64,000 nt of DNA from Verrucomicrobiales bacterium (GTDB lineage Bacteria > Verrucomicrobiota > Verrucomicrobiia > Verrucomicrobiales > V1-33): NCBI GenBank assembly GCA_018003315.1, contig JAGNEJ010000001.1, positions 1-64,000 on the forward strand, read 5' to 3'. A model generated the notes under the pieces. The model worked only from the letters and a program-made list of their open reading frames with translations. It made no database searches and had not been told where the DNA came from. Within the stretch, counting starts at the first letter, position 1, and every line of letters begins with the position of its first letter. Position numbers and translations under genes: made by a program. Positions 1,287 through 24,280 of this stretch are shown here, piece after piece.

Positions 1287-2630
1287 ATGGAAATTGACCA
1301 TAATTCCGCTCCAGTGAACCCCAGCTCCATTCCAGCATTTGTCCGCGGCAGTTTGACTCGCAAACTCATTCTGGTTTTCGGTCTGTTCGTGGTGGCGGGG
1401 TCGGTGCTGCTGGTGCTCTGGCTCAATGCGCAGGAGGAAGGCCGCTCCCGTCAGACCTTTGCCCTGCAGGTGAAGGCGAATGCGGAATTTTTGCACCGCA
1501 CCCGGCTGCCAGCGACCGAACGGATGGCCGAGGACTTGAGTCAGGTCCTTGGGAAAACAGTGGTCTTCCGCACTGACGTCGGCGGATTTCTACCAGCATT
1601 GCCGGACCGGTATCGCCCTTTGGAGTCCGCATTGTCCAGCCTGCCAGACGACGGCCAGGTCCACGCGATGCAACGCACGGAGGCCGTTCGGCGTGGAAAT
1701 TTTTTCGTGCTTCGGCCCGCGCAATCCCCCATCAACTCCCTCATCCGCGGTAGCACCCTGGCGGCCCTGGGCATCTTCTGGGGCCTCTCCCTGGCGCTGG
1801 CAGCCGCGGTCAGCCGCACCATTGTCCGCCCCCTGCGCAGCCTCAGCCGCGCCCTGCCGCAAATCGGGGCTTTGGAACCCTTGGAACTGCCCGGCAGCAC
1901 CCGGCGCGATGAAATCGGCCACGTCGCCCGGGTTTTTCTGGAAACCCAGCGCCAGTTGCAAACGGAACGCCAACGGCGGGCGGCAGCGGAACGGCTTGCC
2001 CTGCTGGGGAAAATGGCCACCGGGCTGGCTCATGAAATTCAAAACCCCGTCGCCGCCATCCGGATGCATGGGCAGCTCTTGCAGCGCCAGGCACCGGGGG
2101 ATGCTTCGCTGGACATGATTGTCCGGGAGACGGAAACGATCGAAGCCTTGGTGAATCAGTGGCTTTTTCTGGCGCGTCCCGAGGCGCCCCTGACCTCCCC
2201 GGCGGACCTCGCGGCACTGCTTCGCCACGCCGCGGAGACGGTGCGCCTGCGTGCGGAACACGCTGGGGTGGAGGTGCGCCTCGACCTGGGGGAGGAACCG
2301 CTCCAAGTCCCTGCGGACCGGCGGCGCCTGACCCAGGTATTTGCCAATTTGCTGCTCAATGCCATTCAGGCCATGCCCGACGGTGGGATGCTCACCGTCA
2401 CCCTGCACCGGGAATCGGCCGCTGCCGCGGTGGAGGTGCGCGACACCGGAAAAGGCTTTTCCGTCGCCGCCTTGGAACACTGGCAGGACCTGTTTTTCTC
2501 CGAAAAGGAAGGCGGCATGGGCATCGGCCTCAGCGTTGCCGCAGAAGTGGTCAAAGCCCACGGTGGCACGCTCCGCGTCCGCAACCACCACGGCGGCGTG
2601 GTCATCGTCACGCTGCCCCTGTGTTCCTGA
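1287..2630 (+). CDS. Two-transmembrane sensor histidine kinase
   Basis: A 447-residue sensor kinase. Membrane segments lie at about residues 26-46 (LILVFGLFVVAGSVLLVLWL) and 157-178, with a periplasmic sensor region of about 110 residues between them. A HAMP linker follows (RTIVRPLRSLSRAL, DEIGHVARVF). The H-box has His249 in GLAHEIQNPVAAIRMH, the N-box is NLLLNAIQAMPDGG, the G1 box is VRDTGKGFS and the G2 box is GGMGIGLS. The HEIxNP form of the H-box is typical of NtrB/ZraS/DctB-type kinases that pair with sigma-54 activators, and the next gene is exactly such a regulator (start 41 nt downstream). It probably phosphorylates Asp53 of that regulator. The signal sensed cannot be told from the sequence. 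Confidence 0.88.
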   Translation: MEIDHNSAPVNPSSIPAFVRGSLTRKLILVFGLFVVAGSVLLVLWLNAQEEGRSRQTFALQVKANAEFLHRTRLPATERMAEDLSQVLGKTVVFRTDVGGFLPALPDRYRPLESALSSLPDDGQVHAMQRTEAVRRGNFFVLRPAQSPINSLIRGSTLAALGIFWGLSLALAAAVSRTIVRPLRSLSRALPQIGALEPLELPGSTRRDEIGHVARVFLETQRQLQTERQRRAAAERLALLGKMATGLAHEIQNPVAAIRMHGQLLQRQAPGDASLDMIVRETETIEALVNQWLFLARPEAPLTSPADLAALLRHAAETVRLRAEHAGVEVRLDLGEEPLQVPADRRRLTQVFANLLLNAIQAMPDGGMLTVTLHRESAAAAVEVRDTGKGFSVAALEHWQDLFFSEKEGGMGIGLSVAAEVVKAHGGTLRVRNHHGGVVIVTLPLCS

Positions 2631-2670
2631 TTTTTCCTTGTTGTCAATCCCCCACATTGCTGCCACTCCC

Positions 2671-3990
2671 ATGAAACCCCGTCCTGTACTCATCATTGAA
2701 GACGAACCGGCGCTGGCCGCCGGATTGCGCACTGTTGTGGAGCGCCTGGGGCATCTCCCACTCCTGGCGGCGACCGGTCGGCGCGGTCTGGACCAAGCAT
2801 CCGCAGAAACCGGCCTGGCCATCCTCGACATCGGCCTTCCGGACAGCAGCGGACTGGATGTGCTACGGGAATTGTGCGAGCGTTTTTCCAATCTCCCCGT
2901 CATCATCATTACCGCTCACGGAAACCTGGAAAATGCTGTGTCGGCAAAACAGCTGGGGGCTGCCGCCTATTTGGTAAAGCCACTCGATCTCGAAATCCTG
3001 GAGGATACCGTCAAGGAATTCCTCAAGCCCGCCACCACCACCCGGTCCGCGCCCGCACCCAAACCCACCAGCGATGGCCCCCTGCTGTTTCTAGGCGGTT
3101 CGCGGGCCATGCAGCCGGCGTTTGCGGAAATCGCCCACGCCTGCGCTTCCGACGCTCCGGTGCTGATCACAGGCCAGGGCGGCGTCGGCAAATCCCTGGC
3201 CGCCCGCATCATTCACCAGCAAGGCACTCGGAAATCCGGCCCATTCGTGCTCCTGCACTGTGGCAACGGCAACGAAGCGCAGATGGAAGAACTGGCCGCC
3301 AATGCCGCGGCGGGAACCCTTTTTCTCGAGGATGCCGGACGCCTCAGCGCGGTCCTCCAATTGCAGTTGCTGGAATTGCTCGACTCCCCCGCCGCCAGCC
3401 GGCCGCGCCTCATCTGTTCGGCCCGGGAAGAACTCGGCGAATTGGTGCGTCTGCATCGGTTTCGCGAAGACCTTTTCTACCGCCTGCGCGTTCTCGAAGT
3501 GCGCATTCCGCCGCTGGCGGATCGCCTGGAGGACCTGCCCACCCTCGCTTCCTACTTTCTGGCCCAAATGACACCACAGCGGAATCTCGACCTCTCCCGT
3601 GACGCCCTCTTGTTACTCCGCCAGCACGAGTGGCCCGGCAACGTCCGGGAACTCCAGTCCGTCCTGGAACGGGCCGCCGCGGTCTGCCCCGGGCGCACCA
3701 TCCAACCCCAGCATTTGCCCCCCGAACTCCGTCCCGAAACCGCAATCGCTCCCAAACACTGGCAAAAACTCGACACCGCCCTGGCAGCCATCGCTGCCGA
3801 AGCCGTCCGCGGACACCAAACCTACGACGCCATTCTCGCGGAAATCGAAGGCCGCCTGCTCACTCAGCTCCTACCCCATTTCGACCACCGCCCCACCCGG
3901 CTCGCAGCCAATCTCGACATGAACCGCGTCACCCTCCGGCGGAAGCTGCGGCAAGCCCACCCTGACAAACGCTCCCAACCCCAATCGTGA
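2671..3990 (+). CDS. NtrC-family response regulator lacking the GAFTGA loop
   Basis: A 439-residue protein: receiver domain (acidic E10-D11, phospho-acceptor Asp53 in AILDIGLPDSSG, Lys103 in LVKPLDLE), AAA+ domain (about 138-345) and a Fis-type helix-turn-helix at the end (RLAANLDMNRVTLRRKLRQA). Walker A is GQGGVGKS (168-175), Walker B is LFLED (217-221), and the arginine-finger region FREDLFYRLRV and WPGNVREL are intact. Between HCGNG (about 197) and the Walker B, where NtrC-type activators carry the ELFGHEKGAFTGA loop that touches sigma-54, there is only EAQMEELAANAAAG. The loop that couples ATP hydrolysis to RNA polymerase is therefore missing. It follows the kinase gene and is surely its partner; whether it activates sigma-54 promoters is doubtful. 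Start ATG at 2671 gives the canonical receiver N-terminus. Confidence 0.87.
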   Translation: MKPRPVLIIEDEPALAAGLRTVVERLGHLPLLAATGRRGLDQASAETGLAILDIGLPDSSGLDVLRELCERFSNLPVIIITAHGNLENAVSAKQLGAAAYLVKPLDLEILEDTVKEFLKPATTTRSAPAPKPTSDGPLLFLGGSRAMQPAFAEIAHACASDAPVLITGQGGVGKSLAARIIHQQGTRKSGPFVLLHCGNGNEAQMEELAANAAAGTLFLEDAGRLSAVLQLQLLELLDSPAASRPRLICSAREELGELVRLHRFREDLFYRLRVLEVRIPPLADRLEDLPTLASYFLAQMTPQRNLDLSRDALLLLRQHEWPGNVRELQSVLERAAAVCPGRTIQPQHLPPELRPETAIAPKHWQKLDTALAAIAAEAVRGHQTYDAILAEIEGRLLTQLLPHFDHRPTRLAANLDMNRVTLRRKLRQAHPDKRSQPQS

Positions 3991-7830: not shown

Positions 7831-8529
7831 TTAAGGTTTTCCACCGGGACCTGCCTGGGCCTCCTTGAGCCTGCGCACGGCCTCGCGCAGTTCCAGGTTT
7901 TCCTTCCGGAGCGCTTCCGCTTCCCGGCGGAGACCATCGGGTTCCTGATGTGCGGCCTGGCGCGACTCTTCCAGCTGGCGACCGAGTTGCTCGGCCAGGG
8001 GGTGAATCCGGGCGGCGGCATCCTGCAGGCCCGCTTCGTTCAGGTGCGCGATGGCCTGCTTCACATGGTGCAGTTTTGCCTCCAGTTGTCTGATGTCCGG
8101 ACGTTCCTCGGATTTCCGATCCCCATCGCGGCGGGGTCCATCCTCGTGCGGTTGGCCCTTTCGTTCCTGTTGCTCCCGTTCAGCATTCTGTCTGGCCTGC
8201 TGCCTTTCGTTGAATTCAGCGATTTCACGGTGCATCCGCTCCTTTGCCTGTCGGCGCAATTCCTCCGCCTTGTCCTTCGCTCCGGATTCCTCCAGCTTCT
8301 TCGCCTCGACCTCCGCCAGTTCCATCCTGTGTCGCACCCTTTCCTTGGCAGCGGCGGCTTCGAGGTGTTGCCGTGCCGCCCTTTCCTTGAATTCCCGCTG
8401 GGCATGTTCCTGCTTTTCGCGTCTGACCTGCTCCCGTTGCGCCCGTTCGGGCTGTTCCTCCTCCGCATACAGAGGGAATGCCAGTGCGGAGGTGATGGCT
8501 GCAAGGATGAGATGATGGAATGTTTTCAT
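7831..8529 (-). CDS. Exported charged coiled-coil protein
   Basis: A 232-residue protein with an N-terminal signal peptide (MKTFHHLILAAITSALAFPLYA-E). The rest is almost wholly Glu/Arg/Gln/Ala/Lys with heptad-like spacing (KKLEESGAKDKAEELRRQ, EALRKENLELREAVRRLK), so it should form long alpha-helical coiled coils broken near residues 120-140 by a Gly/Pro/Asp-rich hinge (QPHEDGPRRDGDR). No enzymatic motif is visible. It is convergent with the PelA-like gene (42 nt gap) and shares a strand with the secreted unknown at 8551-9165, whose stop is 22 nt upstream of its start, so the two are probably one transcript. A periplasmic scaffold or structural role is possible but unproven. Confidence 0.62.
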   Translation of the reverse strand: MKTFHHLILAAITSALAFPLYAEEEQPERAQREQVRREKQEHAQREFKERAARQHLEAAAAKERVRHRMELAEVEAKKLEESGAKDKAEELRRQAKERMHREIAEFNERQQARQNAEREQQERKGQPHEDGPRRDGDRKSEERPDIRQLEAKLHHVKQAIAHLNEAGLQDAAARIHPLAEQLGRQLEESRQAAHQEPDGLRREAEALRKENLELREAVRRLKEAQAGPGGKP

Positions 8530-8550
8530 GATTTGTCAGATTGGTGATGG

Positions 8551-9165
8551 CTATTCATTGACGATCGTAAACCGGGCGCCTTTTCCGGTGAGCCAGGCCC
8601 GTTTCACACTTCCGTAGAGGCGGTTCAGGTCATCCCGGCTTTCCAGTCGGTATTCCACGGTGTGGGCGTGGGTGGTGTTGGGATAGTCCTTTTGCACCAT
8701 CTGCCAGAGCTTGAGCGTTCCCGTGCGGCTCGCAGCCTCGTTCGCCACCTGGTTGATCCGCTCGATGGCCGTCTTCGTCACGTTCAGTGCCGAGGCCTCC
8801 GTTGCGGCTTCCACGTAATAAAAACGGGCAACCAATGCCGTGTCCGTTCCGATGTTCACTTCGAAAACCCGCGAAGGCAGCGGAACAGCGCCGGGAGTTT
8901 GGGTCGGCACCGGCACGGCATACTCATGAATGCTGACACTCGAAATTTTGCCGATGGAAATGCAAAAATTCCCGCCGGGCAGGGTGCAATCCCACCAGTG
9001 GTCGGTCGTTTGCACATCGCGGATGCGCTCCGGGTTGCTCTCGGCATTGTTGTTTGCGGCAGCAGGGTTGGTCCCGCCAGGACGTGCGCCCTGAGCTTGT
9101 GTGAACCAAGTGAAGCCAGCCAGGAAACCGAGAATGAGCAAAGCGGGGAAAAGCAGTCGTTTCAT
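8551..9165 (-). CDS. Exported protein of unknown function
   Basis: I do not recognise this 204-residue protein. The ATG at 9165 gives a clear signal peptide (MKRLLFPALLILGFLAGFTWF) ending near TQAQG-A. The mature part starts with an Asn/Ala-rich linker and continues with a compact domain of mixed alpha/beta character (DHWWDCTLPGGNFCIS, VFEVNIGTDTALVARFYYVE, TLKLWQMVQKDYPNTTHAHT, EYRLESRDDLNRLYGSVKRAW). Two Cys residues (DCT and FCI) may form a disulfide. It is the first gene of a probable two-gene transcript with the coiled-coil protein downstream. The upstream 234 nt to the divergent flavoprotein gene hold the likely promoters; I see no other gene there. Confidence 0.6.
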   Translation of the reverse strand: MKRLLFPALLILGFLAGFTWFTQAQGARPGGTNPAAANNNAESNPERIRDVQTTDHWWDCTLPGGNFCISIGKISSVSIHEYAVPVPTQTPGAVPLPSRVFEVNIGTDTALVARFYYVEAATEASALNVTKTAIERINQVANEAASRTGTLKLWQMVQKDYPNTTHAHTVEYRLESRDDLNRLYGSVKRAWLTGKGARFTIVNE

Positions 9166-9399
9166 GAAAGGGGCGTTGCGCTTGGATTGGATGGCACGTG
9201 CGCGACGAACGTATCCGAACTCGGGGGGGAATGCAAAGCCTCCGGTTGCCGTAAATTCTCCTTGTACGCGGACACGGAAAAGGACACCGTGACCAATCGT
9301 CCTTTCCGGCCGGGATGCGCCCCTCCCTGCCGTGCTATGCGAACGCCTGGCCGCTGCCTTTCCTCTCGACAAATGCGCGCTGCATTTGACCAGTAGGCA

Positions 9400-10890
9400 G
9401 TGCCCACGCTCCGCATCAGCCCGTCCCATTCTGCGTACCATGCCATCGTCATCGGCTCCGGTCCGAATGGACTGGCGGCCGGCATCACGCTGGCCCGGGC
9501 TGGACTTCGGGTTCTTTTGGTGGAAGCACTAAGCACGATCGGCGGCGGGATGCGGACGGAGGAATTAACCCTGCCGGGTTTTCACCATGACATCTGCTCC
9601 GCCGTGCACCCCATGGGGGCGGTTTCGCCGTTCATGCGCTCCGTTCCCCTGGAAAAATTCGGCCTCGAATGGGTGCATCCAGAGATCCTCCTCGCCCACC
9701 CCCTGGACGACGGCAGTGCGCCCGTCCTCCACCGCGACATCGCCCAGACAATCGCAGCCTTACCCAGCAAGGACCGCCGGGCCTACGAGACGAGCATCGG
9801 CTGGCTCGCCCGATCACTGGACAAACTGCTGCCGGACATGCTGGGACCGCTGCTGCGCTTTCCCAGTTGCCCCGTTGCCATGACACGCTTCGGGCTCACC
9901 GCAGTGCAAAGCGGCTGGCGCTTCGCCATGCGCCAATTTGCTTCTCCGGAGGCCCGCGCCTTGTTTGCCGGAAACGCGGCGCATTCCATTCTGCCGCTGG
10001 AAGCCCCCGCCACCGCTGCGGTCGGCCAGATGCTGATGGCCGCTGGGCATGTGGCTGGCTGGCCGGTGGCAAAAGGAGGCTCGCAGGCGATCGCCCGGGC
10101 CTTGGGTCGCTATTTTGAGGCCCTGGGTGGGGAAATCGCTGTGAATTTCCGCGTGAAATCCCTCGCCGACCTGCCAAAGGCCGAAGCGTATTTGTTCGAC
10201 ACCACGCCACGCGGACTGGTGGAAATCTGCGACGAAACACTGCCCGCCCGCTACCGGAAACGACTCGCGACCTTTCGCTACGGTGCCGGTGCGTTCAAGG
10301 TGGACCTGGCATTGAGCGGTCCCATTCCGTGGAAAAACAATGCCTGCCGCCGGGCCGGCACCGTCCATGTCGGCGGGACGATCGAAGAAATCGCTGAGGC
10401 AGAAAGGACCGTCAGTCAGGGGAAGATCCCGGAAAAACCGTTTGTCCTGCTCGCGCAGCAAAGCGTCGCGGATTCGCATCGGGCGCCGCACGGACGCCAC
10501 ACCTGCTGGGCCTACTGCCATGTACCTTCTGGCTCCACCGGCGACGCCCTGGAACCCATTCTCCGGCAAATCGAGCGGTTCGCCCCAGGTTTTCGCGACA
10601 CCATTCTTGCCACCCGGGTGATGCGTCCCCCGGATTTCGAGGCCTACAACCCGAACTACGTCGGGGGAGACATCATCGGCGGCGTCCAGGACCTGCGGCA
10701 GCTTCTCGCCCGGCCAGTGCTCCGACGCGATCCCTATGCCACCCCAGTCCGCAGCATTTATCTGTGCAGTTCCTCCACGCCACCCGGTGGCGGCGTGCAT
10801 GGCATGTGCGGACACCACGCTGCGATCTCCGCCCTGCGCCAGGTCTTCGGGCTGTCCACAAAGCCGGAGACGCCCCCGAATATCGGCTAA
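9400..10890 (+). CDS. Phytoene-dehydrogenase-like FAD-dependent oxidoreductase
   Basis: A 496-residue flavoprotein starting at the GTG at 9400. The N-terminal dinucleotide-binding motif is AIVIGSGPNGLAAGITLARAG (GxGxxG), with the acidic residue that binds ribose in LLVEA, then GGGMRTEE. The C-terminal FAD-contact region is GGGVHGMCGHHAA. Length and layout fit the CrtI/phytoene desaturase-related superfamily (the group that includes PYROXD2-like oxidoreductases) rather than a true carotenoid desaturase; no carotenoid genes are nearby. The substrate is unknown. It is transcribed alone; the next 190 nt before the convergent gene at 11080 hold nothing I can identify. Confidence 0.78.
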   Translation: MPTLRISPSHSAYHAIVIGSGPNGLAAGITLARAGLRVLLVEALSTIGGGMRTEELTLPGFHHDICSAVHPMGAVSPFMRSVPLEKFGLEWVHPEILLAHPLDDGSAPVLHRDIAQTIAALPSKDRRAYETSIGWLARSLDKLLPDMLGPLLRFPSCPVAMTRFGLTAVQSGWRFAMRQFASPEARALFAGNAAHSILPLEAPATAAVGQMLMAAGHVAGWPVAKGGSQAIARALGRYFEALGGEIAVNFRVKSLADLPKAEAYLFDTTPRGLVEICDETLPARYRKRLATFRYGAGAFKVDLALSGPIPWKNNACRRAGTVHVGGTIEEIAEAERTVSQGKIPEKPFVLLAQQSVADSHRAPHGRHTCWAYCHVPSGSTGDALEPILRQIERFAPGFRDTILATRVMRPPDFEAYNPNYVGGDIIGGVQDLRQLLARPVLRRDPYATPVRSIYLCSSSTPPGGGVHGMCGHHAAISALRQVFGLSTKPETPPNIG

Positions 10891-15690: not shown

Positions 15691-17307
15691 TCATACTTTG
15701 AATTCACTGTGAGACAGGGCGGGCAAATGCAGTCCAAACTCTCCGATGTTGCTTCGGGGATCAAATTTTCGAGCAAACCACGGCCCGCTCGACACGATTT
15801 CCCCAACCAGTTCCGCTGAAACATTTCCAAATGCCTCCGGATGGGCTCCGCCTTTCCATTTTGCCAACGTTGGATCAAACGGTGCCACCTTTTCATGCAG
15901 CGGGTAGCCTTTCAGTTGCAGTACCGTTCCCACATAACTCTCGTCGGGAGCAAACATCGCCTCCATGAGTCCCGTGAAATCGTCCTCGCACACCAATTCA
16001 GCCGCCTCCCGGTTCAGCAGCACCCACTGCGAATGAAAACGCCAGTCGCCCGTGGTGACCCTCCTTGCTTGGTTCATCCGCGGCACCTTCTCAGGCTGAT
16101 CTTTTTCAATTTGCTGGCCGGTTTTCCAGTTGAACCGGCTGCGGGAATCAATGCGCAGCAGCCGCAGCAGTTCCGCAAACGGACGAACCGGCACGCAGCT
16201 TTCGGAGACAAAAATGAAATGGGTGTTGCTGCCCTCCTTCAGCGCCTCTGCCAGCAATGCCAGTTGCGTCCGCACCAGTGAAATGTCGCCCCACCGCGTT
16301 TCCAGATGTTTTGGAATTTGCGCCCCTTTCAGCCAGCCATCCGCTGCCGGTTGTGGCTGCGCGATGTGGGAGTAAATCCGCCGGCGGCCCTCCCCTCCTG
16401 ACCAGTATTGCTCCCAGACTTGCGGGTGGTTCACCTCTCCCCGTGTCAGGAACAGGAACGCCACCTGTGGTCCCGTCGCTGCACCGCCCTCTCCGCCGCC
16501 CGGTTCCGGCGGTGTCTTGTCGCCGTCCGGCTCTTTCTCAGCCCATTCGGGAATTCCAAAATGTCGCGCCGGTTTGAACCAGGCGCTGGTCCGGGTGCTT
16601 TGCCGCTTCACCGGCGCATAAGCCTTTCCGCCCAGCGCTTCCGCAGGAATTCCCCGCAGATTGTCATGTGCCCAGCTTTGCTGGCAGTCGTCCGTGTAGT
16701 GGCGGTACGTCGCCCCCACCAGATCCGAATACTCCTCCCGCTGTCCTGCCAGGCTGGGGTAGGGCGCATACGTTGGAATCCGCTCCATCATCCGGCCCAA
16801 AATCACGTCCGCCGCCGGAATGTGGGAGTCCCCGTCCATCCGGGCGTCTTTCAGCGCGGCCATCACTTCCCGGTAATGGCTGGCCCGCACCCCGAACGCC
16901 TGCGTATCCAGCATCGCCCGCACCCGCACGAGTCCCGCAGCCACCGCCACGGGCCGTTCATGGTGCGTTCCGCCCAGATACACCATCCCCCAATCCTCCG
17001 GAAGTTCGATTTCCTCCAGCCGCTGATGCAGGTCTGGATGCAGCGTCACATCGTCCTCAAAAATGAACACGGCCGGCCACTTTTCATGCATTGCCCGGCG
17101 CAAAATCAGGCGGCAGCTCAACGCATGGGCATACCTGCCTGGAAACTGAAATCCCCGGGCGTCGGAAAATCTGCGCGCATCCACTGCAGGGAATCGCTCC
17201 ACCTCCAGCCCAAAATCCTCGAACAACTGCTCGCACCGCGCCCTTCGGTCCTGCCGCCGCGCCAGATTCAGCAAAAAGATTTTCGGAAATGTCTCCTGGA
17301 GTTTCAT
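15691..17307 (-). CDS. Fused glycosyltransferase: GT25 domain plus GT14/DUF266-like domain
   Basis: A 538-residue protein of two catalytic modules. Residues 1-215 are a GT25 (LPS/collagen-type galactosyltransferase) domain: KIFLLNLARRQDRRARCEQL, HALSCRLILRRAM and the DxD-like IFEDDVTLHPD. A Pro/Gly/Glu-rich linker (about 255-285) leads to a second domain (about 288-520) with AFLFLTRGEVNHPQVWEQYW, TRWGDISLVRTQLALL and HFIFVSESCVPVRPF, the pattern of GT14 core-2 branching enzymes and of plant BC10/DUF266 proteins. Both act on sugar chains, so the protein may add two sugars in sequence to a surface glycan. It lies downstream of the GT8-like gene (210 nt gap that holds two G+C-rich hairpins, 17379-17395 and 17406-17420) on the same strand. 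Confidence 0.75.
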   Translation of the reverse strand: MKLQETFPKIFLLNLARRQDRRARCEQLFEDFGLEVERFPAVDARRFSDARGFQFPGRYAHALSCRLILRRAMHEKWPAVFIFEDDVTLHPDLHQRLEEIELPEDWGMVYLGGTHHERPVAVAAGLVRVRAMLDTQAFGVRASHYREVMAALKDARMDGDSHIPAADVILGRMMERIPTYAPYPSLAGQREEYSDLVGATYRHYTDDCQQSWAHDNLRGIPAEALGGKAYAPVKRQSTRTSAWFKPARHFGIPEWAEKEPDGDKTPPEPGGGEGGAATGPQVAFLFLTRGEVNHPQVWEQYWSGGEGRRRIYSHIAQPQPAADGWLKGAQIPKHLETRWGDISLVRTQLALLAEALKEGSNTHFIFVSESCVPVRPFAELLRLLRIDSRSRFNWKTGQQIEKDQPEKVPRMNQARRVTTGDWRFHSQWVLLNREAAELVCEDDFTGLMEAMFAPDESYVGTVLQLKGYPLHEKVAPFDPTLAKWKGGAHPEAFGNVSAELVGEIVSSGPWFARKFDPRSNIGEFGLHLPALSHSEFKV

Positions 17308-17517
17308 GGTCGTCGAAATTTCATTGATTCATCACCACCTGGAAAGCCGCGCTGCGGCGGAAGGCGAAAGAATGTGGCGCCGTCCGCCGGACGGCTGCAC
17401 GGAATCCGCCGGGCCGGCGGACCCACTTTCCTGCCGGCTGGGAAGCCGAAGCAATCCTCCCAAACAGGCTCACTTTTGACAAGTGCGGGACAAAAACCTG
17501 ATTCCTCGCTTTAATCT

Positions 17518-18381
17518 TCACATCTCGATCAGGTTTAAAAACGTAATTCCCGGGTCCCCGTAAAACCGCGCCATGTAGGCCCCGAACATGAACTGAATCC
17601 GATCCGCCTGGGAAGCTCCCGTGCAGTGCAGCACCGCCGCGTCCCTGTAGGTTTTCCAGTCCGGATCGTGCGTCAGCGGGCAGCGCATTTCTCCATCCTC
17701 GAACGGTTTCACCCGCAGCCCGCAGTCCCGCAGCACCCGGTTCCACGCACTGGCGTCCACCCGGCTGGTTGGCCGGGAGGGACTCAATCCCATCACCCGC
17801 TCCCATTCCGCCATCAAGGCGGCAAAATGCTCCCCCCGCACCGCCCACGCCCACGTCGCCGCCGGATACACGCTCACATTTGGCATTCTGCCGCTTGGAC
17901 GCTGCGCCTCCTTTTCCAATTCTTCCACCGTCAGGAAACCGGCATACCTTTCGTCGCCCGGGCTCGCAGCGGCATCGCGCACCACCAGCACATCCGCATC
18001 CGTGCGGAACAGGTGATCCAAATCCCGCAGCACCAGGCAGTCCGCATCCAGCCACAGCACCCATTCATAATCCTCCGCATTGAACATTTCCCGCACCTTC
18101 GGCACCCAGCGCCGTGCATGGTCGGCCAGTTGTGCCCCCTTCAGCGCCGGCGTGTCCACCACCACTTCCTCCAGTCCCTCCCGAAACACCAGAAACAGCG
18201 GTCCCGCCGAGTTCCGGAACACCTTCACTTCCCCTCCAAAATAGTTCCGCACCAGCGACCCCGCCAGCATCTTCGCCATCTGCAGTGTTCCGCCCGTTTC
18301 CGGCGGGTCAAACGCCACCGTCACCGCCAGTTTGGGTTTGGACAGGGAACATCCTGGTTCTCTTGCATTCGCCATGCCCAT
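17518..18381 (-). CDS. GT8-like glycosyltransferase (intact copy)
   Basis: A 287-residue protein. The start at 18381 (MGMANAREPGCS) follows AAAGG at a suitable distance; a longer in-frame extension to 18564 exists but looks non-coding. The central WVLWLDADCLVLRDLDHLF carries the DxD metal/nucleotide-sugar motif and the C-terminal AVLHCTGASQADR carries the His-x-x-Gly typical of GT8 and related retaining transferases; the acceptor-side motif WNRVLRDCGLRV also fits. It probably transfers a sugar to a cell-surface glycan together with the neighbouring GT25/GT14-like fusion. Positions 17670-18408 are duplicated at 21492-22230, where the copy has lost its last 50 codons. Divergent from the Tat-signal protein at 18557. 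Confidence 0.75.
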   Translation of the reverse strand: MGMANAREPGCSLSKPKLAVTVAFDPPETGGTLQMAKMLAGSLVRNYFGGEVKVFRNSAGPLFLVFREGLEEVVVDTPALKGAQLADHARRWVPKVREMFNAEDYEWVLWLDADCLVLRDLDHLFRTDADVLVVRDAAASPGDERYAGFLTVEELEKEAQRPSGRMPNVSVYPAATWAWAVRGEHFAALMAEWERVMGLSPSRPTSRVDASAWNRVLRDCGLRVKPFEDGEMRCPLTHDPDWKTYRDAAVLHCTGASQADRIQFMFGAYMARFYGDPGITFLNLIEM

Positions 18382-18408
18382 TGTTAGCAGCCTTTTCCGC
18401 CATTGCCA
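17670..18408 (-). repeat. 739-bp direct repeat, copy A (GT8-like gene)
   Basis: This segment recurs at 21492-22230 in the same orientation, with a constant offset of 3822 at both ends. It covers 27 nt upstream of the glycosyltransferase start (including the ribosome-binding site) and the first 237 codons. I count 16 amino-acid differences over those codons. Similarity stops sharply at both edges. Confidence 0.92.
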
Positions 18409-18556
18409 GCTTCCTTCCCAAAAATCGTCCGGCAACTCCCCCGCGCTCAAAAAAGATAGGAATCTTCTTCTGGACATCTCCGCATCCTCAGGAGAAACTC
18501 GCCCGTGCGGATTCCCCCTGCTTGAACCCAGCCCAAGCCCAAAAGCCACGAATCCC

Positions 18557-19975
18557 ATGAACAACGATCAAAATCCCAGAGAGAGAGAGGGAGAGAGCTG
18601 CAATTTCCAGAATGAGGTCCGCGCTGCGTGGAATAACCCCATCAGCAGGCGGAGGTTTCTGAAGCGGACGGGCGGGGCGGCTGCAGGCACAACCATCTTT
18701 TTTCAATTAACAGGAACACGCCAGGCGGTAGCTGATCCTGCTGAAATTCACGATCCCTCTGGCGATATCAAATACAAATTGATTTTCGATCTCGGTGGTC
18801 AAACGCAGGAGCGTGAAGGCACTTCGACAACTTTTGATCCCACACTGATTGTGGTTGTCCCTGAAGGAGTCGGAACAGTAAGATTGCGCATCGATGGAGT
18901 GCGGGAGACGGACAAGGATGAAGTAACGTGGAGCGTGCAACGGAACGCCAACGATTCTAGCGGTGCGAAAGCCACACCTGACATTGTTGTCACGCCGGAT
19001 CCTTCAGACAAACGTAATGCTACAATTAGTGCTCCACAAAACCTTAAGGGAGTTTATGGTTCATTTTTGATTTCCGTTGGGCTTCAGGGATCAACCCTTG
19101 TTGTTGGCCAATTTATCGTTATCCGTTCCGTGATTGATGTGGCAACGGCAACGCCGAAACTCCATTGGGTATTTGCTCCTATAGATCAAGGCGGAGGGTT
19201 GCACGGCCTGTTCTCTACCAACAAACCGCAGCCTCCTGCAGGACCGTTTTTGGATTTTTTAGCGCATATCATTTTGCGTGGCGGAAACGGTGACGAAAAA
19301 TTGGGCTGTCAAAGAATTCACCTTGGTTTCATTGGTAACTTAAGATCAACAACTAGATTCCGAACTTATGAAGTGACGATTGGGGAGGTCACGCACAGCC
19401 GTTTTGAAGAAGAGCAATTTGAGGATACTCACTCCAGACTGCTAGACAAACTAGACGGCCCAGCTGCAAATGGCCAATGGAATAAAGTACCGGACAGTTA
19501 TCGTTCAACCTCGGAGGAGATTCCAGCTTCACCCTATTCTCAGCCTTCGACTGGCAAGCTACTATACTTGATCGCCAACGACTCTCCCAATTTTCAGTAT
19601 TCAGCCGAAGTACCGAAATCTGAAACTGTAAAACTTTACATTAAATCCTTGGGAGGTATCCTCGAATTCGAGGATTTCATCGCTTCTCATTCCGACGATT
19701 TCAACCGAGCAGCTGCGATTGATGCCGGGATATTTTGGTCGCTAGAGTTTTCCGCTATTTTGAATCACCAGACGACCCCACCAAATAATTCAGCAACTGG
19801 GACGTGCAAAATAGAAGGCAATTTTATTCCTAATGGTCAAAGCGTAAATTTCCGGAAAGAGAGCTCGGATTTTCCGACGCCGGGAACTGCTCCATACGTT
19901 ATTCAACCAGGAGGAACAACAGCGACAGATTTGGATGACCCGGGTTTACACTTCACCGATACTACAACCGAATGA
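18557..19975 (+). CDS. Tat-exported protein of unknown function
   Basis: I do not recognise this 472-residue protein. The ATG at 18557 is followed by a hydrophilic leader and a clear twin-arginine signal (SRRRFLKRTGGAAAGTTIFF, about residues 32-51), so it is folded before export. The rest is rich in short beta strands (KLIFDLGGQTQ, TLIVVVPEGVGTVRLRIDGV, GVYGSFLISVGLQGSTLVVG, FRTYEVTIGEV) without Cys clusters or a known catalytic motif. An AG/GA dinucleotide tract lies at codons 8-14. The segment is visibly richer in A+T than the genes around it. Its stop overlaps the next gene's start (ATGA), so the two are translationally coupled. It lies between the two copies of the glycosyltransferase repeat, suggesting acquisition by transfer. 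Confidence 0.7.
   Translation: MNNDQNPREREGESCNFQNEVRAAWNNPISRRRFLKRTGGAAAGTTIFFQLTGTRQAVADPAEIHDPSGDIKYKLIFDLGGQTQEREGTSTTFDPTLIVVVPEGVGTVRLRIDGVRETDKDEVTWSVQRNANDSSGAKATPDIVVTPDPSDKRNATISAPQNLKGVYGSFLISVGLQGSTLVVGQFIVIRSVIDVATATPKLHWVFAPIDQGGGLHGLFSTNKPQPPAGPFLDFLAHIILRGGNGDEKLGCQRIHLGFIGNLRSTTRFRTYEVTIGEVTHSRFEEEQFEDTHSRLLDKLDGPAANGQWNKVPDSYRSTSEEIPASPYSQPSTGKLLYLIANDSPNFQYSAEVPKSETVKLYIKSLGGILEFEDFIASHSDDFNRAAAIDAGIFWSLEFSAILNHQTTPPNNSATGTCKIEGNFIPNGQSVNFRKESSDFPTPGTAPYVIQPGGTTATDLDDPGLHFTDTTTE
18578..18597 (+). repeat. AG dinucleotide tract near the start of a CDS
   Basis: Six AG units, GG, then three more GA-type units, inside codons 8-14 of the Tat-exported unknown. Slippage of one unit would shift the frame ahead of the signal peptide. 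Confidence 0.8.
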
Positions 19976-21090
19976 AAGTTAACTTTTGGATAGCAATTGC
20001 TACATTTTTCAGCAATTTTGCTGAATGCGTCGCCGGGAACGATGCTGAAGTCGATAATTATTCAATACATGAATCCCTCAATTCCGGCGGTGGACTTTAT
20101 CTCATTTCTGTAACTTCAGTTGAAGGTGACGAGCCGCGGCGAGGAGCGCGAACATTGGAGGCGCACGCCAAAGTTGTAGTTATGGAGACGATTGCGGGTA
20201 AGCGCCGACACTCGTTTTCCATTCCATATAAATATTTGATAATCGGAACGCGGGATGGAGGTCCAGCAATGATTGGAAACCCGACTGGTTACGACGATGC
20301 GGATCTAGAAATTCCCAACGCAAAATTTGTTATTCTTGCTACTCCCGGAGTCAACAGAAACGGCGTATATCCTCCTAATGTAGAAAAATTCGGATTCAGC
20401 ATGCTGGCGCCAGCGGAGAAAGTAATCGAAAAATCAAGAATCGTCGCGGAACTTTGGTCGAATCCGTTATCTCTGGAGAGGCGTGTTGAATTGCTTGATT
20501 TGCTAGTGGAACCAACGCATGACAGGCGGTTTTTTAGAAGACAGGAAGCTGGATTGTTTTGCCGCTTTGCGCTGTCCGAAGCAACTCAGACCGTGCTGCC
20601 CCTCGACCCAAAAGTTTATAAGCGCTTTCTCGACCATATTGGTCCACGCATCTCAAAAAATTACCTTGCGTCATACAAATGGGGCCTCGACGAGGCGTTG
20701 AAATGGACCGGGGAAAACGGCATGATTCCCGGCATCCCTTCGGACTTAAGCAAATGGTATTTAGCAGAGGATATGTCAGGGATAAATAAATTAGTGGACT
20801 GGCTTTGTGCAAACACTACATCCCCTCAAAACGATATTTTTCAAATGCGCAAGGGAACGAATCTTTCCGGCCCTGGAACTGGAAGGAACACTGGGCGGTC
20901 AGATTCCGGCGGTCTTCTCGAACCTTCCAAAAAGCGCTTTCCAAATGCGCTGTCAGAAGACCGATTTGCAAAACCGCAGATCGAGCGGGGGGGCATCAGC
21001 GCAGGCATGTTGGTGGTTTGGCTGGCGGTGTCAGGAATCGTCTGCGGAGGTGCTTTGTGGATCGGGTTCAAACGCTGGCGGGAGGTATAA
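19972..21090 (+). CDS. Exported, C-terminally anchored protein of unknown function
   Basis: I do not recognise this 372-residue protein. It starts at the ATG at 19972, overlapping the stop of the gene before by four bases. Residues 1-21 are a signal peptide (MKVNFWIAIATFFSNFAECVAG), and residues about 345-364 are a single membrane segment (AGMLVVWLAVSGIVCGGALWIGF) followed by the basic tail KRWREV, so most of the protein should lie outside the cytoplasm. The body has a strand-rich first half (GGLYLISVTSVEGDEP, AHAKVVVMETIAG, KYLIIGTRDGG) and a helical second half (RIVAELWSNPLSLERRVELLDLL). The membrane anchor and coupling suggest that it forms a complex with the Tat-exported partner. A+T content is higher than the surroundings. 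It ends 38 nt before an IS66-type end. Confidence 0.68.
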   Translation: MKVNFWIAIATFFSNFAECVAGNDAEVDNYSIHESLNSGGGLYLISVTSVEGDEPRRGARTLEAHAKVVVMETIAGKRRHSFSIPYKYLIIGTRDGGPAMIGNPTGYDDADLEIPNAKFVILATPGVNRNGVYPPNVEKFGFSMLAPAEKVIEKSRIVAELWSNPLSLERRVELLDLLVEPTHDRRFFRRQEAGLFCRFALSEATQTVLPLDPKVYKRFLDHIGPRISKNYLASYKWGLDEALKWTGENGMIPGIPSDLSKWYLAEDMSGINKLVDWLCANTTSPQNDIFQMRKGTNLSGPGTGRNTGRSDSGGLLEPSKKRFPNALSEDRFAKPQIERGGISAGMLVVWLAVSGIVCGGALWIGFKRWREV

Positions 21091-21128: not shown

Positions 21129-21491
21129 GTAAGCGTCTCACCAGACCATGTTGGTGCCGACCTTCGTGGGCGTCGGGCGGCGGGCGGCCGCGGCGGGCGG
21201 TGCGAGCCGTGGACGGGGCACCTCAGCGGGCGCGGAACCAGGCGGCGGGAGTCAGCGCGGGGACGACGGACGTGGTGCCATTGGCCAGGCGGGGGAGGAC
21301 GTCGGCGAGGTAGTCCCTGGGATTGAGGCCAAGGCGCTTGGCGGATTCGATCACGCTGGCGATGGCGGCGACGCGGGGTCCGGCTTCCCAACTGCCGACG
21401 TGGAGCCAGTTCTTGCGGCCGAGCACCAGGGGGCGCACTGAGTTCTCCGCCCAGTTGGTGTCGAGTTCGACTTCGCCGTGGTCAAAGATAC
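21129..21491 (-). mobile_element. IS66-family remnant: right end and C-terminal part of the transposase
   Basis: Minus-strand codons 21223-21491 match the C-terminal end of the IS66 transposase TnpC: LDTNWAENSVRPLVLGRKNW, GSWEAGPRVAAIASVIESAK and NPRDYLADVLPRL. The terminal sequence GTAAGCG at 21129-21135 is, from memory, the start of IS66-type inverted repeats. The N-terminal part of the transposase, the tnpA/tnpB genes and the other end of the element are absent: similarity ends at 21491, where the duplicated glycosyltransferase begins. The element is therefore dead. Confidence 0.82.
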
Positions 21492-22203
21492 GCGTCAGCG
21501 GGCAGCGCATTTCCCCATCCTCAAACGGTTTCACCCGCAGACCGCAGTCCCGCAGCACCCGGTTCCACGCACTGGCATCCACCCGGCTGGTTGGCCGGGA
21601 GGGACTCAATCCCATCACCCGCTCCCATTCCGTCATCAAGGCGGCGGAATGTTCCCCCCGCACCGCCCACGCCCACGTCGCCGCCGGATACACGCTCACA
21701 TTCGGCACCCGGCCGCCCGGACGCAGGGCCTCCTTTTCCAATTCTTCCGCCGTAAGGAAACCGGCATATCTTTCGTCACCCGGTCTCGCAGCGGCATCCC
21801 GCACCACCAGCACATCCGCATCCACACGGAACAGGTGGTCCAAATCCCGCAGCACCAGGCAGTCCGCATCCAGCCACAGCACCCATTCATAATCCTCCGG
21901 TCGGATCATTTCCCGCACCTTTGGCGCCCACCGCCGGGCATGGTCGGCCAGTTGGGCCCCCTTCAGCGCCGGCGTGTCCACCACCACTTCCTCCAGTCCC
22001 TCCCGAAACACCAGAAACAGCGGCCCAGAAGAATTCCGAAACACCTTCACTTCCCCTCCAAAATAGTTCCGCACCAGCGACCCCGCCAGCATTTTGGCCA
22101 TCTGCCGCGTTCCCCCCGTTTCCGGCGGGTCAAACGCCACCGTCACCGCCAGTTTGGGTTTGGGCATGGAACATCCTGGTTCTCTTGCATTCGCCATGCC
22201 CAT
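21223..22203 (-). pseudogene. Chimeric ORF: truncated GT8-like copy fused in frame to IS66 transposase tail
   Basis: The first 237 codons from 22203 (MGMANAREPGCSMPKPK) are the second copy of the GT8-like gene, with the same ribosome-binding site and the DxD motif WLDADCLVLRDLDHLF. At 21492 the reading frame passes without a stop into 89 codons of IS66 transposase. The last 50 residues of the glycosyltransferase, including its HCTG motif, are lost, so catalysis is unlikely even though the 326-codon frame is open and could be translated. I class it as a pseudogene on that ground. Confidence 0.8.
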
Positions 22204-22230
22204 TGTTAGCAGCCTTTTCCGCCATTGCCA
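21492..22230 (-). repeat. 739-bp direct repeat, copy B
   Basis: Second copy of the segment at 17670-18408, same orientation. Its left edge is the IS66 remnant and its right edge is a sugar-isomerase fragment on the other strand. Confidence 0.92.
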
Positions 22231-22231
22231 T

Positions 22232-22615
22232 CTCGAACACGGCAGGCAGGTGCTGCAATACGACCGGGACTCTGAGTGGACGCAGCAGCACCTCATCAAC
22301 CGCGTGGAGCCCACCGCCACGGGCGAGGGATGGACCGAGGAGCGCACCGGACTCCACGAGTCCGAGTTCATCGAAACCCGCCGTCACTGGTTCACCGGCC
22401 CTGTTCCCCACAACACCGGAGGCACGCTCAACGTGCTCAACCTGATCGAAGGCCGCGAGGCCATCGTCGAAAGCCCCAGCGGCGCCTTTGACCCCTTCGT
22501 CGTCCACTACGCCGAGACCTTCATCGTGCCCGCAGCCGTCGGCCCCTACACGATCCGCCCGCACGGCGAGTCTGCCGGCCGGCGCTGTGCCACCCTCAAG
22601 GCTTTCGTGCGCTGA
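22232..22615 (+). pseudogene. C-terminal fragment of a class I mannose-6-phosphate-isomerase-like gene
   Basis: An open frame that starts exactly at the edge of repeat copy B and has no start or ribosome-binding site of its own. It encodes about 127 residues: VLQYDRDSEWTQQHLINRVE, HNTGGTLNVLNLIEGREAIV, PFVVHYAETFIVPAAVGPYT and a C-terminal ATLKAFVR. The 'VHYAETFIVPA.VG.Y...P.G' end resembles the cupin-type C-terminus of class I phosphomannose isomerase relatives seen in PVC bacteria. The N-terminal two thirds are missing, presumably lost when the repeat arrived. Confidence 0.6.
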
Positions 22616-22657: not shown

Positions 22658-24280
22658 CTACTCCGTTTCGCCGGATAGCGGCGCGGCGGGGGCGGAATCG
22701 GGACGATCCAGCATGGATTTGACCACCAAGCCTTTGGCGATTTCCAGCCAGCTGCGGGCCCGCTGCGGGCCGGGAGGAAACCGCATCGCCAGTTTGGCGG
22801 CTTCGGATTCACCCTGGGATGCGGCCACCTGACGGAGATCCTTGAACGCATGGTCTTGGGAAAGGGCAAATCCGGGACCCGCGGAGGATTCCACCGGAAG
22901 GCCGGCCAGCGCTTCCAACACCACGCCGCGTCCGTCGGCGGGCAGTCGTTCAGCCAGAGCCAGGGCGTTTTCCCAATCGCCATCACGGAACAGCACCAGT
23001 GCAATGCTGCGCGCTGACTGGACGGAAGGGACCTGCTTTTGCAGCAGAGGGCGGAGATCTGCCAGCACCTCGTGCAACCCCTCGGGTTCGGAATTTTTGA
23101 AAGCGGCGTCAAGCAGGGCGGCCAGCACATCGATCGCCTGCTGGTCAGGCAGGGTCTGCGCAAGAGTGCGGGCGGATTCCAGACAACGGCGGCTCTGGTC
23201 GAATTCCAGGGCATCATTGCAAAGCTGTCCCAGATCCACCCACAGCGCCCCCTGACTTGCGGGCGGACACGCGGCGATAGCCCTGCGGGCAAGGTCGGCC
23301 AGGGGTTTCCACTCCTCCGGAGTTTTACCCAACTGCCAGGCAGCACGGGTGGCCAGCAACCAGGCTTGCGCCTGCGGCAGCGGGGCCGTTTCGGCCTCCG
23401 CCCGGCGGCGGAGATCCGCGCGCAGTTCCGCGGGAGTTTCCAGAGTGCCATTGAGCCTGGCGGCCTCCAGGCGCAAGGGCAGGCGCAGGCTGGCGGGAAG
23501 GGAATCCAGCAGAGCCCGGGCATTTTCCGGATGCTCCATGCGCACCAGGCGGAAAAGTTCCGCCAGCAGTTCGTCGCAGGCTGACTCCGGCAAATCCTGA
23601 CACAAGGCTCTGACCCGGTCCGGATGGCCCAGCCAAAGGTGAATCCAGGCCAGTTGTTCGCGCAGTGCCGGCTGGACTTCGGGAGCTGCTGCTGTCAGCA
23701 GGTTTTCCAGCCCTGGAAGCCGTCGCGCGGCTTCGTCGCGACCGTCGGTTTCCGCCATAACCCTGACAATTTTTGCCTCCAGGACCGGCTCCGGACGCTG
23801 TCCCAGCGCCAAATCCGAAAGGCCCATCCGCGTGATTTCGAGCAGAATTTCCTCCCGTGCCGCAGCGCGACGGACGGGATTTGCAATCCGCTCACAAAAC
23901 TGCAGGGCCGGCGCAAGCGACCCGGAATCTTTCTGCAAATGGCCGCGGGCAAGGGCGCGCCAGGCCTGCTCCCGCAGGGCGGGTTCGGCAATTCGCCCGA
24001 CAACCGCAGCGGCAGCGTCGAAATTTCCTGCCCGCAGTTGCAGCATCGACAGCTCCAGCAAATCAAAATCAAAGGCCAGGGGGCGCGGAGATTTGGATGC
24101 CTCCAGGGCGGCCACGGCCCGCTGGACGAGTCCGTCCACGCCGGCATCCTCCGGGGTGTTTTCCGTGGAAAACCACCACCAGAGAAAAGAGCCACACAGA
24201 ACCGCGACGATGACAACCCCGCGCCAGCTTTCCTGCATTTTGGGTGCGGGCGGCACCGGCGGCGTGGCTTCCCCGCTCAT
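22658..24280 (-). CDS. Membrane-anchored helical-repeat (TPR-like) protein
   Basis: A 540-residue protein with a Pro-rich cytoplasmic start, one membrane segment at about residues 20-37 (GVVIVAVLCGSFLWWWF) and a long extracytoplasmic part of Ala/Leu/Glu-rich helix pairs (MLQLRAGNFDAAAAVVGRIA, ALREQAWRALARGHLQ, DVLAALLDAAFKNSEPEGLH), consistent with degenerate TPR/SEL-type repeats. No catalytic motif is visible. Its ATG overlaps the stop of the FHA-cyclase gene (ATGA at 24277-24280), so the two proteins are made together. A scaffold or sensor function linked to cyclic-nucleotide signalling is an inference from that coupling only. Confidence 0.68.
   Translation of the reverse strand: MSGEATPPVPPAPKMQESWRGVVIVAVLCGSFLWWWFSTENTPEDAGVDGLVQRAVAALEASKSPRPLAFDFDLLELSMLQLRAGNFDAAAAVVGRIAEPALREQAWRALARGHLQKDSGSLAPALQFCERIANPVRRAAAREEILLEITRMGLSDLALGQRPEPVLEAKIVRVMAETDGRDEAARRLPGLENLLTAAAPEVQPALREQLAWIHLWLGHPDRVRALCQDLPESACDELLAELFRLVRMEHPENARALLDSLPASLRLPLRLEAARLNGTLETPAELRADLRRRAEAETAPLPQAQAWLLATRAAWQLGKTPEEWKPLADLARRAIAACPPASQGALWVDLGQLCNDALEFDQSRRCLESARTLAQTLPDQQAIDVLAALLDAAFKNSEPEGLHEVLADLRPLLQKQVPSVQSARSIALVLFRDGDWENALALAERLPADGRGVVLEALAGLPVESSAGPGFALSQDHAFKDLRQVAASQGESEAAKLAMRFPPGPQRARSWLEIAKGLVVKSMLDRPDSAPAAPLSGETE

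Follow-up and report, generated by a model that had tools for sequence, protein, structure and literature searches.

We found that P0001 and P0002, two adjoining genes of a Verrucomicrobiales bacterium, are one copy of a recurring, apparently undescribed module of this bacterial order in which the protein bodies are hypervariable. They lie in the window, by which we mean the whole 64,000-nucleotide stretch of DNA that was analyzed. The module would consist of a Tat protein with a conserved leader and an S/T-rich hypervariable body, a tethered protein encoded directly downstream, and an adjoining, order-specific GT8-like gene, often accompanied by GT25/Branch and other cytosolic glycosyltransferase genes. 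The partner's tether would be an N-terminal anchor, a lipoprotein or, in the window, a C-terminal transmembrane (TM) segment. We observed directly the leader family, the pairing, the GT8 linkage, the signals, and the variability. No description of such a module was found in the titles and abstract openings of the literature searched. A first-pass annotation of this DNA had proposed a coupled exported pair, and such pairs do recur across genomes; it missed the glycosyltransferase linkage and that conservation is confined to the leader.

Features of the pair and its flanks in the window
Feature	Position	Strand	Remarks
GT25 and Core-2/I-Branching glycosyltransferase gene	15691..17307	-	Pfam PF02485, E 2.8e-24; PF01755, E 8.7e-8
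GT8-like (putative) glycosyltransferase gene	17518..18381	-	Head-to-head with P0001; start position uncertain; family alignment
Intergenic region, GT8-like gene/Tat gene	18382..18556	.	Between divergent genes
P0001, Tat-exported protein	18557..19975	+	472 aa; Tat leader, residues ~1-59; low-confidence model beta-rich
P0002, partner	19972..21090	+	372 aa; probable Sec signal; C-terminal TM, ~340-368
IS66 transposase C-terminal remnant	21226..21480	-	Fused to second GT8-like copy; PF03050, E 2.3e-9; PF13817
Second, truncated GT8-like copy	21484..22161	-	93% identical to first over 300 nt

P0001 starts at the ATG at 18557 and stops at 19973-19975, and its stop overlaps the start of P0002 by ATGA. 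An upstream TTG (547 aa) is possible as an alternative start but would run into the divergent GT8-like gene. The region between the two divergent genes is a possible two-way promoter. After 500 rounds of mononucleotide shuffling of 18557-21090, plus-strand ATG open reading frames (ORFs) reached 184 aa at most. Therefore, the frames of P0001 and P0002 are not due to chance. P0001 has a twin-arginine signal, SRRRFLKRTGG (residues 30-40), followed by AVA|D, which by eye resembles a cleavage site. It matched NCBIfam TIGR01409 at 16.9 bits (cutoff, 16.7) and Pfam TAT_signal at 16.1 bits, under the cutoff of 22.7. The N-terminal h-region of P0002 is moderately hydrophobic (14-residue maximum, 1.5). 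The GC content is 0.48 in P0001 and 0.49 in P0002 versus a window mean of 0.61, and GC3 is 0.44 and 0.48 versus 0.75 in both pnp and the neighboring GT8-like gene. Thus, the twin-arginine signal, the Sec signal (as a probable one) with its C-terminal anchor, and the A+T-rich composition that had been read from the letters all held up. The ATGA overlap had also been taken to imply fixed stoichiometry; it suggests translational coupling only. AlphaFold models built without an alignment had a mean pLDDT of 35 for mature P0001 and 40 for P0002. These low-confidence models, which are only hints, show mostly strands for P0001 and a helical middle (~148-290), a linker, and a C-terminal helix for P0002.

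Neither protein had a convincing family match beyond the Tat signal in Pfam, NCBIfam, PADLOC, or PHROGs, and a PDB sequence search returned nothing meaningful for either, in agreement with the first-pass statement that no family was recognized. Full-length relatives of P0001 were absent from 13 same-family genomes, from pattern scans of GTDB contigs and IMG/VR, and from plasmids, and 387 phylum-sample genomes gave leader-only matches with no relative of the body. P0002 had no relatives elsewhere in its own genome, in the 387 phylum-sample genomes, or in GTDB contigs, IMG/VR, plasmids, or phages. Searched against 288 genomes of the order, P0002 gave weak matches (E ≤0.1) in ten other genomes. 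The best of these (E 7.9e-4, to P0002 residues 26-164) was dismissed as chance because it sits in an unrelated 1805-aa frame, which we take to be CHRD/DUF1800-like. P0002 resembled neither of the two profiles built for the main partner groups, and the class-A partner profile had no match among PDB sequences.

The only matches of P0001 were to its leader: G000:C127, from the window's own genome, and G227:C33, from a different family of the order. Both adjoin a downstream exported gene and sugar-enzyme genes; the exported gene in G000:C127 has an ATGA overlap, and the gene order in G227 (GT25/Branch, GT8-like, Tat) is that of the window. A three-row leader profile had matches in 53 of the 288 genomes of the order at E 0.01. 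With a minimum score of 27 bits, a cut set after the profile results were known, it recovered 22 genes from 14 genomes. Five of these genes belong to the window's own genome (G000). It is on this recovery and on the TIGR01409 match above cutoff that P0001 counts as a Tat substrate. An unusual c-region motif of the HGLKVEVLA type was common to 9 of 29 leaders and absent from the window's leader. Judged from sequence comparison, the conserved part of the module's Tat proteins is the Tat leader only.

We defined a partner as a same-strand ORF of at least 100 aa with a hydrophobic N-terminus, starting no more than 60 nt from the Tat stop. A partner was present at 17 of the 22 leader genes versus 5 of 20 weaker Tat hits (Fisher p 0.0016), and a GT8-like gene lay within 5 kb of 16 of the 22 versus none of the 20 (p 4.8e-7); three of the 22 went into the leader model, and excluding them gives 15/19 for pairing and 14/19 for GT8. 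The controls are part of the weaker leader-profile hits, those whose loci were fetched; the five paired ones are L109, L112, L119, L121, and L122, and without the poorly parsed L105 and L119 the count is 4/18. The loci L053, L054, L055, and L056 came in with the family set. L053 is counted in the 22, and the other three scored below 27 bits and stand outside the 20 controls. None of these three has a GT8-like gene; L054 is pair-like, L055 has a pair, and L056 has a partner at 98 nt. Adding them to the controls gives 0/23 for GT8 and 7/23 for pairing. The first-pass annotation had made its proposal of a system depend on pairing beyond this locus: the arrangement does recur, and it is the protein bodies of the window that have no relatives.

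Among the leader genes unpaired by the rule, L006 has a partner 177 nt downstream, L052 is at a contig end, L053 is by appearance an unrelated Tat enzyme, and L046 and L050 have Tat ORFs of just 54 and 62 aa. These two short ORFs (L046, 7154-7315; L050, 7353-7541) adjoin GT8-like genes and are possibly decayed copies. Overlaps of -4 nt recur in the window, L005, L042, L044, and L051, and also in L055 and L090. Partner sequences were unrelated, except inside groups. A tether was visible in 24/24 listed partners (22 by a hydrophobic N-terminus, L037 by a lipobox, and the window's partner by its C-terminal TM), which had been chosen for comparison with a preference for hydrophobic N-termini. Two sets of paralogous modules share both Tat body and partner, as expected of a unit: L044/L048 (body, E 4.6e-31; partner, E 4.7e-6) and L045/L056 (body, E 3.3e-7; partner, E 2.8e-45). 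Two tandem Tat-plus-partner pairs stand in L041 (G498:C53), with no GT8-like gene close by. Elsewhere in the window, the minus strand at 22658-24280 encodes a 540-aa protein that has a hydrophobic segment at its N-terminus and a helical-repeat look, and that by eye only resembles the class-A partners.

A leader that is conserved in front of a variable body, a partner that overlaps or lies close, multiple copies per genome (G000 has five), mobile-element debris, and co-inheritance of the pair in two cases would also fit a polymorphic toxin-immunity pair, in which the variable body is toxic and the membrane-tethered protein is its cognate protector. However, no toxin, immunity, or defense family or domain was recognized in P0001 or P0002 with Pfam, NCBIfam, PADLOC, or PHROGs, and the partner often exceeds the Tat protein in length (406 versus 176 aa in L042; 390 versus 151 aa in L045). 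A toxin-immunity pair also leaves the GT8 linkage unexplained, and we consider it improbable.

The GT8-like gene of the window matched Pfam Glyco_transf_8 at 20.6 bits (E 3.8e-4), below the cutoff of 24.3, and the DxD region of the family alignment has acidic positions that hardly vary. Among solved structures, the GT8 profile came closest to Skp1 galactosyltransferase and glycogenin, with matches spanning just 30-42 residues; both enzymes act on protein-bound sugar. The family was present in 24 of the 288 order genomes, and matches in a 327-genome phylum sample came from four genomes, all of the window's order; in the samples searched, it appears to be order-specific. A Tat-signal ORF lay within ~2.2 kb of the GT8-like gene in 21 of 32 GT8 loci, with no Tat gene in the other 11; 10 of the 32 gave rows of the GT8 model, and among the other 22 the Tat gene was found in 11. 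For loci fetched solely for GT8, the count was 7/18. The two genes were head-to-head in 13 of 29 tabulated loci, which take in L053, L054, and loci without GT8, and the nearest spacing was 100-453 nt, or 1481 nt in L049; in the window, 215 nt separate the conserved GT8-like domain from the Tat ATG. GT8-like genes that are not head-to-head mostly lie downstream of the Tat gene and on its strand, with a convergent one in L043. No GT8-like gene was within 5 kb of 6 of the 22 leader hits (L005, two in L041, L044, L048, and L053).

Other neighbors include members of the Core-2/I-Branching, GT25, GT11, GT34, GT90, and DUF707 families, methyltransferases, and UDP-galactopyranose mutase, and relatives of the window's GT25/Branch gene adjoin the pair in L006 and L037 too. 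Neighbors were called by a crude gene finder, and 69 of 145, plus two L039 genes added by hand, were family-scanned. None of the 145 predicted neighbors had more than 8 predicted TM segments, and they thus include no evident Wzx/Wzy-like flippase or polymerase. Codivergence of GT8 and leader was not significant (Mantel r 0.18, p 0.13; within-family p 0.058).

The flanks of the pair are rearranged. A direct repeat of the GT8-like gene (17670-17969 and 21492-21791, 93%) flanks the Tat pair, and its second copy abuts an apparently truncated ORF at ~22230-22615. In L005, also from the window's genome, methyltransferase and UDP-galactopyranose mutase genes are duplicated on the two sides of the Tat operon (1388-3417 and 7907-9453), with a transposase-like ORF, apparently ISL3, at one side of the duplication. 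A REP-like palindromic element at 17366-17431 of the window is ~84-91% identical to copies in G000:C127, C66, and C30, and the copy in C127 lies ~150 nt upstream of the C127 Tat gene.

Such flanks, with the GT8 duplication, the methyltransferase and mutase (GLF) duplication, and the IS66 and ISL3 remnants, are what one would see if the Tat pair and the glycosyltransferases simply shared a hypervariable surface island and did separate jobs. The enzymes would then build some glycan, such as LPS core, independently of the pair, which would be a variable envelope protein (an adhesin, a sensor, or a phage-exposed protein). The module copies without GT8 (L041, L044, and L048, with L055 and L056 among the weaker hits) and the absence of GT8-leader codivergence point the same way. 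However, the GT8-like gene is order-specific in our samples, has a Tat gene near it in about two-thirds of its loci, and is repeatedly placed head-to-head at mostly short spacing. General coresidence would not favor one enzyme and one geometry. We regard the shared island as short of probable, yet nearly as likely as the reading that we prefer below.

The Tat bodies are hypervariable: among 29, convincing matches were limited to L044/L048 and L045/L056. Their S+T content was 16.8% (n=25; 17% in the P0001 body) versus 12.1% in control Tat bodies (n=18, p 2e-4), a modest excess over control proteins that are mostly enzymes. A CBM_5_12 match was seen in one of 26 bodies scanned. Many Tat substrates carry cofactors, and a two-part redox or metabolic complex had been suggested for the pair. 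However, CxxCH occurred in 0/25 bodies and CxxC in 2/25, no cofactor-binding motif or family was found in P0001 and P0002 (Pfam and NCBIfam) or in the scanned Tat bodies, and the bodies contain less His than the control Tat enzymes. Thus, the redox suggestion found no support, and we judge it highly improbable.

Our preferred reading is that the module makes a variable cell-envelope glycoprotein. The Tat body would fold in the cytosol, where linked soluble glycosyltransferases would decorate it with sugar; it would then leave through Tat, and the tethered partner would catch or display it at the surface. A substrate that had been folded and modified beforehand would suit the Tat route. The neighboring nucleotide-sugar glycosyltransferases, methyltransferases, and UDP-galactopyranose mutase support a glycoprotein, as do the pairing, the GT8 linkage, the visible tethers, the S+T excess, the lack of an obvious flippase among the neighbors, and the solved relatives of the GT8 profile; that P0002 has no sequence similarity to other partners counts against it, and so do the 11 GT8 loci that have no Tat gene. 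The GT8 and GT25 enzymes could equally be making LPS core or other glycans. Because of this, of the GT8-free copies, and of the lack of GT8-leader codivergence, we hold the glycoprotein reading tentatively, as somewhat short of probable.

These results place an orphan gene pair in a module that recurs and can be tested. Should the glycoprotein reading be true, Tat would be a general export route for cytosolically glycosylated proteins, and a bacterial order would own a hypervariable surface glycoprotein family that homology-based annotation overlooks because the bodies share no sequence. Serine-rich-repeat glycoproteins and accessory Sec (see PMC5578698) resemble the module in their locus-linked glycosyltransferases, in intracellular glycosylation (proposed for the module), and in giving a surface protein an export route of its own. 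They differ in that the module has a Tat leader rather than SecA2/SecY2, no long Ser repeats, a GT8-like enzyme, and a tethered partner gene. P0001 itself is no member of that class, with its Tat signal and the S+T content given above. That the module is a Gram-negative counterpart of accessory Sec, in which a dedicated GT8-like enzyme would O-glycosylate hypervariable proteins in the cytosol, Tat would export them folded and glycosylated, and a dedicated tethered partner would display them, is an analogy that we think rather unlikely to hold in full. In PEP-CTERM/EpsH sorting (see PMC1569441), a short conserved signal also sits on variable proteins and is tied to glycan loci; the module's signal is N-terminal Tat rather than C-terminal, and an EpsH-like gene was absent among the Pfam matches listed for the scanned neighbors. 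The module's enzyme weakly resembles the GT8 glycosyltransferases glycogenin and Skp1 galactosyltransferase in profile comparison, around the DxD region. Unlike them, its family of putative glycosyltransferases is bacterial, order-specific, and Tat-linked.
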